Shown: positions 7,003 to 64,000 of the stretch, in pieces | Numbering within the stretch: position 1 is the first letter of the stretch | How the letters are laid out: the number at the start of each line of letters is the position of its first letter | DNA from: Streptomyces sp. AM 2-1-1 | GTDB taxonomy: Bacteria > Actinomycetota > Actinomycetes > Streptomycetales > Streptomycetaceae | NCBI RefSeq assembly: GCF_029167645.1 | Contig: NZ_CP119147.1 | Coordinates: forward strand, 4,048,501-4,112,500 | Length of the DNA: 64,000 bases | Direction of reading: 5' to 3' | Notes under the pieces: model-generated | What the model was told of the DNA's origin: nothing | Databases searched by the model: none | The model's input: only the letters and a program-made list of their open reading frames with translations | Translations under genes and position numbers: made by a program

Positions 7003-9090
7003 TCAGCCCGCCAGGGCCTCGGGCAGCGGGGCCGCGTGCACGACCGCCAGGCCCGAGACCGCACGGGTCAGCGCCACGTACAGCCGGCGCAGCCCGGTGC
7101 GCTCGTCGGGTTCGCCGTCGACCACGGCCGCCGGCTCGTCCAGCACCACGTAGTCGTACTCCAGGCCCTTCGCGAGCGAGGCGGGGACCAGCGTCAGCCG
7201 TGACGCGGCGCTCGTCTCCTCACCCGGCGACAGCACCGTGTGCCCGGCCGCCGCCAGCGCCCCGGCCAGCGCGGGGATGCGGGCGTCGGCGGCGATCAGC
7301 CCGATCGACCCCTCCTGCTCCAGCGCCTCCTCGCACGCCGCGACGGCCGCCGCCGTCAGCGCCCCGGCGTCCGCCACCCGGCGGACCGCGAGCGAACCGG
7401 GCGACTCGCGCACCGACTCGACCGGTGCCAGCCCCGGAGCGATGGAGGGCAGCAGCCGGGAGGCGTACGCGATCACCTCGCGCGGCACGCGGAACCCGGC
7501 GGTCAGCTCCTCCACCACCGCGTCCCCCTTGCCGAGGTGGCCGAGCGCGTCCGCCCAGCTCCGCGTCGACCAGGGCGTCGTGCCCTGCGCGAGGTCGCCG
7601 AGCACCGTCGCCGAACCCGTCGAACAGCGCCGCCCCACCGCCCGGTACTGCATCGGGGAGAGGTCCTGCGCCTCGTCGAGCACCACATGGCCCAGCGAAT
7701 GCGTACGCTCCACCAGGTCCCGGGCCTCGTCGATCAGCACCGCGTCGGCCGCCGACCACCTCGCCGACTTCACGCTGCGGACCGGCTTCGCCCACACCAC
7801 CGCCTTCTGCTCGTCCTCGGTGAGCAGTCCTTCCGCGTGGACGGCCAGGAACTCCGGGTCGGAGAGGAGCCGCAGCACCAGCTTCGCCGGATCGACGGCC
7901 GGCCACACCGCCTTCACCGCCGCCTTCACCGCGGGGGTGCGCGCCACCGCGTTCTGCACCCGGTCGTCCGGCGCCTCCCCCGCCTCCTCCATCCGGACGA
8001 GCACCCGGTGCGCGATCCGCTGCGGCAGCGCCTCGTGGGCGGCGCCGTACCGCATCCCGCGCGCCAGCAGTTCCTCGACCAGCTCCGCCACCTCGTACGC
8101 CGGGACCCGCCAGCGACGCGAACCGCGCACCACGACGATCTCCTCCGCGGGCGTGCCCACGTGCGAGCGGACCGCCCGGCGCAGCACCTCCGCCATCCGG
8201 GCGTCGCCCTTCACCAGCGCGGCGGACGCCTCGTCCACCCCGCGCACCTCGACGCCGGCGGTGACCAGGTCCTCCACGGTCGCCTGACGCACCTCCATCT
8301 CGCCGAGGGCGGGGAGCACCTGCTCGATGTAGTGGAGGAACGACCGGTTCGGCCCGATGACGAGCGTGCCCGTACGGGCGAGCCGCTCCCGGTGCGCGTA
8401 GAGCAGGTACGCGACACGGTGCAGGCCCACCGCCGTCTTGCCGGTGCCGGGGCCTCCCTGGACGCAGATCGTGCCGCCCAGCTCACCGCGGACGATCTCG
8501 TCCTGCTCCGGCTGGATGGTCGCGACGATGTCCCGCATCGGACCGACGCGCGGCCGCTCGATCTCCGCCTGGAGCAGCTTGCTGGTGGTCCCGGCCCCGG
8601 CGGCGTCGGCGGGGGCCGTCAGGTCCTCGTCCTCGTACGCGGTGAGCTCGCCCCCGGTGTACCCGAAGCGGCGGCGCAGCCCCACGTCCTGGGGGTCCAG
8701 CCGGGACGCCCGGTAGAACGCCTGTGAGACCGGCGCACGCCAGTCGATGACCATCGGGTCGCCGCCGGCGTCGTGGACGTGACGGCGGCCGATGTAGAAC
8801 CGCTCCCCCTCCGCCCCCTCGGCGCGTTCCGCGCCGACCGGGTGCCGGAAGTCGAGCCGGCCGAAGAAGAGCGGGGTGTGCGACAGGTCGGCGAGCGCCT
8901 TGATGCGGTCGTCGATCTGCGCCTGGAGCACGGCGGCGTTCACCCAGTTCGCGGTGACGTCGCGGATGTCGAGGGCCTGGACGTCCTCGCGCATGGCGCG
9001 CAGGGCCGCCCGGGACGCGGCGAGATGACCTCGCTCGCGGCCCAGTGGATCGGTGGGGGTGTCACTCTCTGCGGTGTGCGGCGCGGACAC
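7003..9090 (-). CDS. helD: HelD-family RNA polymerase-associated ATPase/helicase-like protein
   Basis: This 695-residue protein has HelD architecture: an N-terminal coiled arm (about 1-75), then FYIGRRHVHD and IDWRAPVSQAFY. Walker A is GGPGTGKT at 212-219, and a long insertion precedes DEAQD at 472-476. Two C-terminal helicase-1A/2A blocks end with LRRLYVALTRAV. HelD releases stalled or inactive RNA polymerase using ATP or GTP; it is UvrD-like but not a normal DNA helicase. GTG 9090 has a GGAGG ribosome site 8 nt upstream and matches the typical N terminus. A second, divergent HelD relative (HelR-like) lies at the right edge of this window. Confidence 0.9.
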   Translation of the reverse strand: MSAPHTAESDTPTDPLGRERGHLAASRAALRAMREDVQALDIRDVTANWVNAAVLQAQIDDRIKALADLSHTPLFFGRLDFRHPVGAERAEGAEGERFYIGRRHVHDAGGDPMVIDWRAPVSQAFYRASRLDPQDVGLRRRFGYTGGELTAYEDEDLTAPADAAGAGTTSKLLQAEIERPRVGPMRDIVATIQPEQDEIVRGELGGTICVQGGPGTGKTAVGLHRVAYLLYAHRERLARTGTLVIGPNRSFLHYIEQVLPALGEMEVRQATVEDLVTAGVEVRGVDEASAALVKGDARMAEVLRRAVRSHVGTPAEEIVVVRGSRRWRVPAYEVAELVEELLARGMRYGAAHEALPQRIAHRVLVRMEEAGEAPDDRVQNAVARTPAVKAAVKAVWPAVDPAKLVLRLLSDPEFLAVHAEGLLTEDEQKAVVWAKPVRSVKSARWSAADAVLIDEARDLVERTHSLGHVVLDEAQDLSPMQYRAVGRRCSTGSATVLGDLAQGTTPWSTRSWADALGHLGKGDAVVEELTAGFRVPREVIAYASRLLPSIAPGLAPVESVRESPGSLAVRRVADAGALTAAAVAACEEALEQEGSIGLIAADARIPALAGALAAAGHTVLSPGEETSAASRLTLVPASLAKGLEYDYVVLDEPAAVVDGEPDERTGLRRLYVALTRAVSGLAVVHAAPLPEALAG

Positions 9091-9483
9091 GGGTGTTGCC
9101 TCCGACAGTTCGACGCAGGGCGACGGCCGCACGGCGCGAAAGGGCGCACGGCCGGGTCCCGGTGGGCGATCACGAGGGGATACGCGCGAAGGGCGCGCGT
9201 ACCGGCCGCGCACGCGGTGGCGCGCACGGCAGTCGGCCGGTTTCCGTCCGGTCGGCGGCACTCCCCCGGCTGCCGGCGGACGAGGCCGGTACCACGGTGC
9301 GGGAGGGCGGGGCAGACCGGAGAGTGTATCCACGGGAGGGGGCACGGGCGAACCGCACGCCGCGGACCGCGGATCCCGGGGGTCGGTGGATCACGCGGTG
9401 AGGGTCCGCCGGGGCGCGGGTCCGCCGGGTCGCGCGCTCGCCCTCCTGGCCCGCACCCGCGTGCGAGGAGCACTCTGGAGAGC
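9091..9483. other. 393-nt divergent intergenic region between helD and a small ORF
   Basis: The region contains the helD leader. On the helD strand TACACT follows a weak TTCGCC at 18-bp spacing around 9320-9345, so a leader of roughly 220 nt is possible. No convincing gene is seen; the frames here are compositionally biased artefacts. I found no riboswitch-like fold by eye. Confidence 0.35.
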
Positions 9484-61368: not shown

Positions 61369-61791
61369 ATGCCGCACGACCAGCACCACCACCACGAGCC
61401 GGCGATCACCGTCGCCCAGCTCAACCACACCGCCGTCTACGCGCCGGACCGGCACCTGTCGGCCGTATTCATCGCGACGATCCTGGGCCTGGAAGTCGGC
61501 GTCCCGTTGGGGCCGTTCCTGCCCGTCGATCTCGGCAACGGCGTGACGCTCGACTTCTACGAGAAGCGCGACGAGCCGGTTCAGTCGCAGCACTACGCCT
61601 TCCTCGTCCCCGACGGGCAGTTCGATGCCATGGTCGACCGCCTGGACGCGCTCGCGGTCACCTATTACGCCGATCCGCACCACACCGAGCCGGGCAGGAT
61701 CAACCGTCTCTTCGGTGGCCGTGGCGCGTACTTCCTCGACCCGGCCGGGCACAACATGGAGATCATGACCCGTCCCTACGCCCGCCCCTGA
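61369..61791 (+). CDS. VOC (glyoxalase/bleomycin resistance) superfamily protein
   Basis: The 140-residue VOC protein has two beta-alpha-beta-beta-beta halves: VAQLNHTAVYAPDRHLSAVF at about 14-33 and HYAFLVPDGQFDAMVDRLDA at about 76-95. It ends GRGAYFLDPAGHNMEIMTRP. Metal ligands could be His20, His76 and Glu at the C-terminal strand. An N-terminal His run (HDQHHHHEP) is odd. Such proteins act as lyases or bind and sequester antibiotics; none can be chosen. It follows the TetX-like gene by 249 nt; ATG 61369 has GGAGAGG upstream. Confidence 0.87.
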   Translation: MPHDQHHHHEPAITVAQLNHTAVYAPDRHLSAVFIATILGLEVGVPLGPFLPVDLGNGVTLDFYEKRDEPVQSQHYAFLVPDGQFDAMVDRLDALAVTYYADPHHTEPGRINRLFGGRGAYFLDPAGHNMEIMTRPYARP

Positions 61792-62142
61792 GGGGCCCTC
61801 GGTCCGGGTCCCGGCTCCCGGGACCCGGACCGAGGTGTGTGCGGGGATCCGGATCAGGCCGGAGGGGGGATGCGGGGCGCGAGGGTGCGCACCGGAGGAG
61901 GATGCCGGCTTCCCCTCCCAGGTGCCCGCGCGGGCACGGCACCCCAGGCCGTTGCCGGACGAGCCGGACGACATCCGTGGGGGCGCGGGGCGGGGCCGGG
62001 AAGCGGCCGACTGGGTAAAGGGGGCGTACCCACCCCTTTCCACTCTCAACATATAGCGCACGGGGGGCCTTGCGGCAAGGCCCCCTCCGTACCGCACAAT
62101 CGGCGGCCCGACCTCGCAACCCCGTCCCCCGGAGCCGCCCGC
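61792..62142. other. 351-nt leader/promoter region upstream of the helR-like gene
   Basis: Left part holds hairpin-forming GC-rich sequence after the VOC stop (GGTCCGGGTCCCGGCTCCCG-like at about 61800-61830), a possible terminator. Right part contains CATATAG, a -10-like element (62050-62056), 6 nt before the palindrome at 62063-62085. The gap from the palindrome to the ATG is 57 nt. Confidence 0.5.
62063..62085. promoter_or_regulatory. 23-bp perfect palindrome matching the rifamycin-associated element (RAE)
   Basis: Left arm GGGGGCCTTGC (62063-62073) and right arm GCAAGGCCCCC (62075-62085) are exact complements around a central G. The core CTTGCGGCAAG and G/C-flanked architecture match the RAE as I recall it from rifamycin-inactivating genes in actinomycetes. 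It sits immediately downstream of a -10-like TATAGC and 57 nt before the helR-like start. Confidence 0.8.
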
Positions 62143-64000
62143 ATGATGTCCCCGCCCGCCACGACCCCTCTCGGCGCCTCCCCGGCCGGCAGCGCCTTCG
62201 CCCTTCCCGGCCGCCTCGCCGCGAAGGACGACCCCCGGCTGATCGCGCGCGACGAGACGCACTTCGCGGCGGTCGCGGAGAGCCTGGAGCAGTCGGTCGC
62301 CGAGCTGACCGAGCAGCTCACCGCGGCGCGCAGGGCACCCGGCGGCGCGGGCCGGCAGGCGATGGACCGGGACACCGAGATCCGCCGGCTCACCGGCCGG
62401 CTGCGCGCGCTGCGCCGCTTCGGCCTGGACCTGTGCCTCGGGCACATGGTCGCCGAGGACGGTGGTGACCCCGTGTACGTCGGACGGCTCGGCCTCACCG
62501 ACCGGGCGGGCCGGCGACTGCTGCTCGACTGGCGTTCTCCGGCGGCCGAACCGTTCTTCGGCGCCACCCACGCCAACCCGATGGGCCTGGCGAGCCGTCG
62601 CAGGTACCGGTGGACCGACGGCCGGATCAGCGACTACTGGGACGAGGTCTTCACCGCCGACGGCTCCTGGAACCACGCCGCGCTCGACGACCAGTCCGCG
62701 TTCGTCGCGAGCCTCGGCTCGAACCGGTCACCCCGGATGCGCGACGTGCTCGGCACCATCCAGGCCGACCAGGACGCCATCATCCGGGCCGGTTCGCGCG
62801 GCGCCCTCGTCGTGGACGGCGGCCCCGGGACGGGGAAGACCGTGGTCGCGCTGCACCGCTCCGCGTACCTCCTCCACTCCGACCCGAGGCTCGGCCACCG
62901 TCGGGGCGGCGTGCTGTTCGTCGGCCCGCACCGGCCGTACCTGGACTACGTCGCCGACGTGCTGCCCAGCCTCGGGGAGGAGGGCGTCCAGACCTGCACC
63001 CTGCGGGACCTCGTCGCGGAGGGTGCCGGGGCGCCCGCCGAGGCCGATCCGGAGGTGGCCCGACTGAAGGCCTCCCGGCGGCTGGTGGTGGAGGCGGTCG
63101 AGGCGGCCGTCCGGTTCTACGAGGAGCCGCCCACCCGGGGCACGACCGTCGTGACCCCGTGGTCCGAGGTGCGGCTGAGCGCCGCCGAGTGGGCGGTGGC
63201 CTTCGGGGCGGCGGAACCGGGCACCCCGCACAACGAGGCGCGGGAACAGGTCTGGGAGGAACTCGTCACCCTGCTGGTGGACAAACACGACGAGGAGACC
63301 CCCACCGACCGGCTCACCACATCCCTGCGCCGGAACCGGGAGTTGGTGGCGGCCTTCGACCGCGCCTGGCCGCTGCTCGAAGCGGCCGACCTGGTGGCAG
63401 ACCTCTGGTCCGTCCCCGCCTACCTGCGTCGGTGCGCCCCGTGGCTGGACGCCGACGAGCTGCGGCGGCTGCGGCGCGAGGACTCCCGCCCCTCGGCCTG
63501 GACCGCCTCCGACCTGCCGTTCCTGGACGTCGCCCGCCAGCGCCTGGGCGACCCGGAGGCCGCGCGCCGCAAGCGTCGGGGCGAGGCCCTGATCGCGGCC
63601 GAGAACGCGAGGATGGCCCAGACCGTCGACGCCCTGCTGGCTGCCGACGACGACGGCGAGAGCGTGATCACGATGCTCCACGTGAGCGACATGCGCGACG
63701 CCCTCACCGACGAGTCCGCCGTGCCGGGCACCGATCCCGACCTGCTCGCGGGCCCGTTCGCGCACATCGTCGTCGACGAGGCGCAGGAACTCACCGACGC
63801 GGAATGGCAGATGCTGCTGCTCCGGTGCCCCTCCCGCAGCTTCACCATCGTCGGCGACCGCGCCCAGGCCCGGCACGGCTTCCCCGAACCGTGGCGGGAG
63901 CGCCTGGAACGGATCGGACTCCACCGGATCGAGCTGGCGACCCTGAGCGTCAACTACCGCACCCCGGCGGAGATCATGGCCGAGGCCGAGCCGGTCGTCC
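62143..64000 (+). CDS. helR: HelR-like RNA polymerase-protecting ATPase, partial (3' end beyond window)
   Basis: The first 619 residues are visible. It is a HelD-family protein with N-terminal coiled-coil (about 36-95), VGRLGLTDRAGRRLLLDWRS, Walker A GGPGTGKT (226-233) and HIVVDEAQELTDAEWQMLL (about 541). It then reads IVGDRAQARHGF and SVNYRTP at the edge. Length and the HelR-like N-terminal arm separate it from the housekeeping HelD at 7003-9090. HelR displaces rifamycins from RNA polymerase in Streptomyces and mycobacteria; the upstream RAE palindrome supports the same role. ATG 62143 is adjacent to a second ATG (62146); a weak GGAG site lies upstream. Confidence 0.9.
   Translation, partial: MMSPPATTPLGASPAGSAFALPGRLAAKDDPRLIARDETHFAAVAESLEQSVAELTEQLTAARRAPGGAGRQAMDRDTEIRRLTGRLRALRRFGLDLCLGHMVAEDGGDPVYVGRLGLTDRAGRRLLLDWRSPAAEPFFGATHANPMGLASRRRYRWTDGRISDYWDEVFTADGSWNHAALDDQSAFVASLGSNRSPRMRDVLGTIQADQDAIIRAGSRGALVVDGGPGTGKTVVALHRSAYLLHSDPRLGHRRGGVLFVGPHRPYLDYVADVLPSLGEEGVQTCTLRDLVAEGAGAPAEADPEVARLKASRRLVVEAVEAAVRFYEEPPTRGTTVVTPWSEVRLSAAEWAVAFGAAEPGTPHNEAREQVWEELVTLLVDKHDEETPTDRLTTSLRRNRELVAAFDRAWPLLEAADLVADLWSVPAYLRRCAPWLDADELRRLRREDSRPSAWTASDLPFLDVARQRLGDPEAARRKRRGEALIAAENARMAQTVDALLAADDDGESVITMLHVSDMRDALTDESAVPGTDPDLLAGPFAHIVVDEAQELTDAEWQMLLLRCPSRSFTIVGDRAQARHGFPEPWRERLERIGLHRIELATLSVNYRTPAEIMAEAEPVV

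Follow-up and report, generated by a model that had tools for sequence, protein, structure and literature searches.

The window analysed here, a stretch of 64,000 nucleotides from Streptomyces sp. AM 2-1-1 (contig NZ_CP119147.1), ends within a gene for a HelD-family ATPase that is preceded by a perfect palindrome, and the locus raises two questions: whether this gene is a true helR under a rifamycin-associated element (RAE), and how an RAE may be organised so that expression answers to the drug. RAEs are described as 19-bp palindromes upstream of rifamycin-resistance genes, including helR, in the available parts of three published accounts (PMC8655204, PMC10719064 and PMC10194278). The HelD-family genes considered in this genome were the following:

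62143..64000, plus strand: helR, with the first 619 of its 728 codons in the window; ATG at 62143, stop ending at 64329 in window numbering, past the edge
7003-9345, minus strand: the other HelD-family gene of the window, below all four model cut-offs
G000:C1:4551106-4553502 and 5247273-5249648: two HelD-family genes elsewhere in the genome, below all four model cut-offs

The last gene of the window is a true helR, a new case of a known gene type. The full gene (L014:6644-8830; 728 amino acids) was obtained by translating the reading frame into the neighbouring stretch, and the protein scored 1242.9 bits against the NCBIfam model NF041254 (motor_HelR; cut-off 750), while falling below the cut-offs of motor_HelR_2 and of the equivalogs HelD_MYCSM (377 versus 1051 bits) and HelD_BACSU (80.9 versus 419 bits). 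The three other HelD-family proteins tested passed the cut-off of none of these four models. A midpoint-rooted tree of 101 sequences placed the window HelR, with a support of 1.0, in a clade of 12 made up of itself, seven RAE-preceded HelRs of set A (see below) and four orthologs, and the two included paralogs from the host genome lay outside the HelR clade. Among the 120 matches listed, of 7998 in all, the closest HelR relatives were mostly named Streptomyces. The preliminary description, which had called this a helR-like gene, the second of the HelD family in the window, with Walker A and DEAQ motifs, was thus borne out: the motifs are present (GGPGTGKT at residue 226 and DEAQ at residue 545), and in the phylogeny that it had proposed as a check the protein grouped with RAE-linked HelRs, and a grouping with generic HelD did not appear.

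The closest solved relative is HelD of M. smegmatis (PDB 6yxu and others), to which the window HelR can be aligned over residues 40-726 (E 6.4e-99), although it stays below the curated HelD_MYCSM cut-off as given above. The acidic loop tip of M. smegmatis HelD (E484, D485) reaches the rifampicin pocket, and the primary-channel loop of the window HelR also has an acidic tip, with D and D at the corresponding places of the alignment. By their published descriptions, S. venezuelae SVEN_6029 and M. abscessus MAB_3189c are of the same type, a HelR-type HelD with an upstream RAE; we know of no essential difference from them, and the window protein fits motor_HelR, not motor_HelR_2. Both genes are reported, in the accessible text of PMC8655204 and PMC10719064, to be induced by rifampicin and to give resistance, and the accessible text of PMC6529629 likewise reports induction by rifampicin of a rox homologue and of MSMEG_2174 in M. 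smegmatis.

The palindrome upstream of helR was located as follows:

62063..62085, centre 62074: RAE, the 23-bp perfect palindrome GGGGGCCTTGCGGCAAGGCCCCC
62066-62082: nearly invariant core of the RAE, GGnCTTGCnGCAAGnCC, from the site comparison

No longer perfect palindrome than GGGGGCCTTGCGGCAAGGCCCCC was found in the window, but its length was ruled out as evidence, since 33 of 200 first-order random sequences of the same length and composition contained a palindrome of at least 23 bp. The palindrome stands above chance because of its sequence identity, its place and its conservation. Its core CTTGCGGCAAG occurs a single time without mismatch in the window, and in the 7.2-Mb genome the 21-bp RAE pattern was found at one place with no mismatch, at one with two and otherwise with three mismatches; these were 10 places as against 21 for a control pattern, which gives the same kind of three-mismatch places. 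Across 293 genomes of the order the 21-bp pattern occurred in 207, versus few matches for the reversed control pattern.

Three sets of sites, 134 in all, were compared. Set A (91 sites) consisted of the sites of the host's own rox (L013) and helR (L017) and of 89 others among the listed matches of a DNA search in which 128 of 150 genomes of the genus matched. The query was 62036-62108, and as the sites were selected by similarity to it, part of their conservation within the query follows from the selection. The query did not cover most of the hairpin described below, the A-rich tract or the leader past 62108. Set B was drawn from 30 loci returned by the 21-bp palindrome pattern in the 293 genomes of the order. 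With selection by the palindrome only, 27 of the 29 loci evaluated, each scored in whichever of two orientations fitted better, carried all nine of the flank bases tested, and this is the fair flank number for set B because some promoter bases belonged to its filter; the exceptions were L131 with six flank bases and L108, a chance palindrome, with two, and L127 lay outside the 29. The 27 loci were retained, leaving 24 after removal of duplicates. Set C came from 80 loci in named genomes found with M. smegmatis HelD, of which 32 were considered (31 at 67% identity or more, and L192); 20 of these had an RAE by the core pattern, giving 19 sites after one duplicate was removed, and 12 had none.

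As judged by its core and flanks, which are as in the 133 other sites, and not by a published consensus, the 23-bp palindrome is a real RAE, in agreement with the preliminary description. A known rifamycin-resistance gene (helR, rox, rgt or rph) lies within about 2 kb downstream of 133 of the 134 sites, the best match being helR at 68, rox at 38, rgt (glycosyltransferase) at 23, rph (phosphotransferase) at 4 and none at 1, a count in which the 19 sites of set C are not independent because they were selected by their HelD/HelR gene. The family names rgt and rph are those that we presume to apply. That helR lies under an RAE we regard as practically certain, and its expression would be inducible by rifamycins, as published for other RAE genes. 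At L078 (G110:C1:8902300-8905055) the RAE unit is well conserved, but no helR, rox, rgt or rph was found in the roughly 2 kb downstream of it.

In a survey of 296 genomes of the phylum, 30 of which matched at E 1e-60 or better, the RAE unit was present at all 12 HelR orthologs among the best loci of these genomes (56-100% identical; the window's own, seven others of the genus and four of other genera in three other families) and at none of the 18 loci with more distant HelDs (33-41%); the profile used rewards promoter bases, and presence or absence is the stronger part of this result. The 48 loci found with M. smegmatis HelD but not considered for set C had no RAE by the core pattern, and at the 12 RAE-less loci considered the unit was absent by profile scan as well. 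A scan of 700 bp revealed no trace of the RAE unit at the HelR-type genes L138, L143, L151, L155-L160, L163, L165 and L185, which encode proteins at least 67% identical to HelD of M. smegmatis; presence of the unit looks all-or-none. At L192 the RAE may be that of an adjacent glycosyltransferase-like frame and not of the HelD gene.

The two-mismatch RAE-like site of the host genome precedes rox, whose product scored 876.6 bits against NF033145 (rif_monoox; cut-off 800) and 804.7 bits against Rox of PDB 5vqb, a drug-modifying enzyme. The helR and rox promoters of the genome are 86% identical over 63 bp. One rpoB was found in the genome. Its rifampicin-binding stretch (27 residues) is what we take to be the usual sensitive form, so that protection by HelR would make sense. 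Just upstream of helR, on the plus strand, lie a FAD_binding_3 monooxygenase gene (PF01494; 59452-61119) and a gene for a small protein (61369-61791), VOC-type by look and with no Pfam match.

Comparison of the 134 sites around the palindrome centre (c) suggested a pair of promoters facing away from each other, which at the window locus are predicted as follows:

62070..62075, plus strand: predicted sense (helR) -35, TTGCGG
62095..62100, plus strand: predicted sense (helR) -10, CACAAT, 19 bp from the -35, with the start expected near 62106
62073..62078, minus strand: predicted antisense -35, TTGCCG on that strand
62048..62053, minus strand: predicted antisense -10, TATGTT on that strand, 19 bp from the -35, with the start expected near 62040
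62052-62057, plus strand: TATAGC box of the preliminary description, overlapped by the predicted antisense -10

At the centre of the sites there is a TTGC-type -35 on each strand, with -10-like hexamers mirrored 21 bp to either side. A plus-strand NANNNT at c+21 to c+26 was found at every site (91/91, 24/24 and 19/19 in sets A, B and C; 134/134 in total), and a minus-strand TANNNT at c-21 to c-26 at 132 of 134 (90/91, 24/24 and 18/19, respectively), against a background of 0.00075 for TANNNT at other offsets. At L144, the miss in set C, a TANNNT is present but shifted by one base. Set C columns -26, -22, -21 and -20 were conserved at 0.95 and columns -25, -24 and -23 at 0.58, 0.47 and 0.37, a pattern that fits a -10 read on the minus strand, and there are sites (for example, L140, L149, L164 and L226-L228) where the plus-strand TATA has been lost and the minus-strand TANNNT kept.

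These results change the part of the preliminary description that concerned the -10-like box beside the palindrome. The box exists, but it is probably not the -10 of helR, because the plus-strand TATAGC ends in C and the overlapping minus-strand hexamer reads TANNNT at 132 of 134 sites; it reads better as an antisense -10, and the likely helR -10 is found on the right-hand side of the palindrome (CACAAT, 62095-62100). We infer that the RAE includes a divergent antisense promoter, and we consider it quite likely that both mirror promoters are active. The literature searched, as far as it was accessible, contained no mention of an antisense promoter as part of an RAE, and the portions available of the literature on start-site maps and bidirectional promoters held nothing on RAEs; the primary papers may differ.

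The left box could alternatively be part of a regulator site or belong to a second sense promoter, with the RAE acting as the operator of a rifamycin-responsive regulator on the sense promoter. Two sense promoters are indeed reported for the mycobacterial gene in the available text of PMC10719064, P1, whose start lies some 20 bp upstream of the RAE, and P2, whose -35 is in the RAE, and an antisense start is not mentioned in that account (section 9). P2 is compatible with the sense promoter predicted here, and P1 is left unexplained by the mirror reading. On the plus strand the left element can also be read as a CANNNT displaced by one base from the minus-strand TANNNT (for example, CAACAT, 62047-62052), and the same source, as available, reports that in M. 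abscessus induction was abolished when half of the RAE was lost. However, a plus-strand reading of the left box lacks a conserved -35 at suitable spacing, where the variable loop of the repeat lies; the minus-strand TANNNT stays where the plus-strand TATA is lost; and an operator alone accounts neither for the 21-bp mirror spacing nor for the leftward U-tract that follows the hairpin. We therefore regard this alternative as unlikely, and the pair of mirror promoters is retained below.

At the place where the antisense transcript would start, many sites contain an inverted repeat, which in the window is the following:

62015..62041, minus strand: inverted repeat with 8 of 9 pairs and a loop of 9, with 1 U in the next 10 nucleotides

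A hairpin of at least 7 of 9 pairs at this expected start was present at 81/91, 16/24 and 3/19 sites in sets A, B and C, compared with 1-7, 0-4 and 0-2, respectively, at seven other offsets. A leftward U-tract (at least 5 U in the 10 nucleotides after the hairpin) was found at 74/91, 17/24 and 2/19 sites (controls 0-4, 0 and 0-2), and 85 of the 134 sites had both. Sites outside Streptomycetaceae mostly lack the hairpin (3/19). Set A sites averaged 6.11 U leftward versus 2.56 T rightward, and the stems with at least 7 pairs represented 36 distinct arm combinations. Median folding z-scores were -3.65, -3.26 and -0.30 for the three sets. The hairpin of the host's own rox has 9 of 9 pairs and 4 U in 10; free folding of the 45-nucleotide minus-strand RNA of the window favours a structure other than the named one.

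Covariation gave a mixed picture. RNAalifold found no pairs among 22 set B hairpins; when the named 9-pair stem was imposed on the same alignment, 84.8% of cells were paired (a value reached by 3 of 500 shuffles), both sides had changed in 11 cells (4/500) and the covariation score was 0.236 (4/500). The counts of pairs with double changes (4; 102/500) and of pair types (11; 208/500), on the other hand, were ordinary, and in controls with slid partners the number of double-change cells ranged from 1 to 9. Mismatch type (42 versus 30) gives weak support for the strand of the hairpin. Together the hairpin and U-tract look like a terminator for leftward transcription that belongs to the Streptomyces lineage, with a few scattered occurrences elsewhere (for example, L140 and L161). 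Such a terminator, lying 5' of a gene that reads rightward, would presumably be purposeful only if transcription leaves the promoter region leftward.

The palindrome itself might instead act as an RNA hairpin or a DNA cruciform, and at the window locus it is perfect. Six base pairs from the centre, however, set A has G at 59% of sites on the left and at 93% on the right, so that in roughly half of the sites or more G faces G, a combination that cannot pair on either strand, and an Rfam search of 61800-62300 returned one match far below gathering (mir-5681, 17.1 bits; gathering 88). An action as RNA hairpin, cruciform or known RNA family was rejected on these grounds; the first two we find scarcely credible.

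How, then, might the drug be sensed at a pair of overlapping promoters? The explanation that we favour, and to which as a whole we give slightly better than even chances, begins with HelR, an ATPase that would bind RNA polymerase, displace rifamycin and recycle the enzyme, as published for other HelRs. It would be expressed from the RAE promoter, and the two RAE-like promoters of the genome, serving helR and rox, would pair target protection with drug inactivation. The RAE would form the centre of two mirror-image promoters with an overlapping -35 region. One, in the sense direction, would serve helR (TTGCGG, 19 bp, CACAAT); the other, divergent from it, would be an antisense promoter on the minus strand (TTGCCG, 19 bp, TATGTT). 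The antisense RNA would have a hairpin at its start, and in most Streptomyces sites transcription would stop at this point, at an intrinsic terminator. The invariant palindrome bases outside the -35s would be bound by a putative dimeric regulator, responsive to rifamycin and in control of both promoters.

Exclusive binding of the two promoters would not by itself produce a response: in a steady-state formula evaluated for 8000 parameter sets at five drug levels, the induction ratio never exceeded 1.000. In B. subtilis, moreover, a dual-promoter rifampicin alarm acts on comparable targets (helD and a rifampicin-modifying enzyme) through sense and antisense promoters, and according to the accessible part of PMC12802891 induction was abolished when the promoters were moved close enough to clash. 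Since exclusion cannot induce and a clash abolishes induction there, either a dimeric regulator or cycling of polymerase on the antisense unit would be needed. The alarm model copied to the RAE was discarded on the same two grounds; its promoters are convergent and must not clash, whereas the predicted RAE pair is divergent with overlapping -35s, and neither the convergence of the alarm nor its room for two polymerases is found in the predicted pair. The actinobacterial RAE is set apart from the alarm, and its mechanism called unresolved, in the available text of the same 2026 paper.

In the second of these options RNA polymerase would be the sensor and no regulator would exist: cycling on the antisense unit would keep the sense promoter shut, and rifamycin would break the cycle. 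Sensing of the drug by polymerase through two promoters has been reported for helD and pps of B. subtilis (PMC12802891, as available), sliding and re-initiation of polymerase after termination are described in the accessible parts of PMC6978322 and PMC6978380, and a toy calculation with free parameters gave 4-fold to 364-fold induction, depending on the lifetime of the cycle. Against this stand the loss of induction on promoter clash in B. subtilis and the failure of simple mutual exclusion to induce; the terminator is absent from most non-Streptomyces sites, and a polymerase sensor leaves the invariant palindrome bases beyond the -35s unexplained. A regulator-free mechanism is therefore, in our judgement, improbable. 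We would also call doubtful the broader proposal that the RAE is more than an operator, namely the shared -35 core of mirror promoters conserved from Streptomyces to Mycobacteriales, with the leftward promoter, which at most Streptomyces sites would yield a very short terminated RNA, as a working part of the sensor and polymerase cycling reporting the drug. The dimeric regulator is ranked ahead of polymerase cycling because three RAE columns that lie outside the TTGC boxes, at distances of 5, 7 and 8 from the centre, are nearly invariant (set A, 1.00; set C, 0.95-1.00), and binding of a regulator at the palindrome seems to us moderately probable.

The pairing of RAE and helR is already published, and the locus itself, which adds one more case with two RAE-like promoters (helR and rox) in one genome, is by good evidence an ordinary one. 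The interest would lie rather in the anatomy of the RAE, which is new here and comes from comparison of sites: a predicted mirror pair of promoters with an adjoining antisense unit, carrying a sharp and testable prediction on drug sensing. In sets A-C the RAE-linked genes also have a conserved 5' leader about 27-60 bp to the right of the centre, consisting of a small GGCC..GCC hairpin followed by about AACCTGCGGAAATGGGG (for example, L139 and L161). For the most part missing from the window helR and the host's own rox, this leader is common to helR, rox and rgt genes of several genera.
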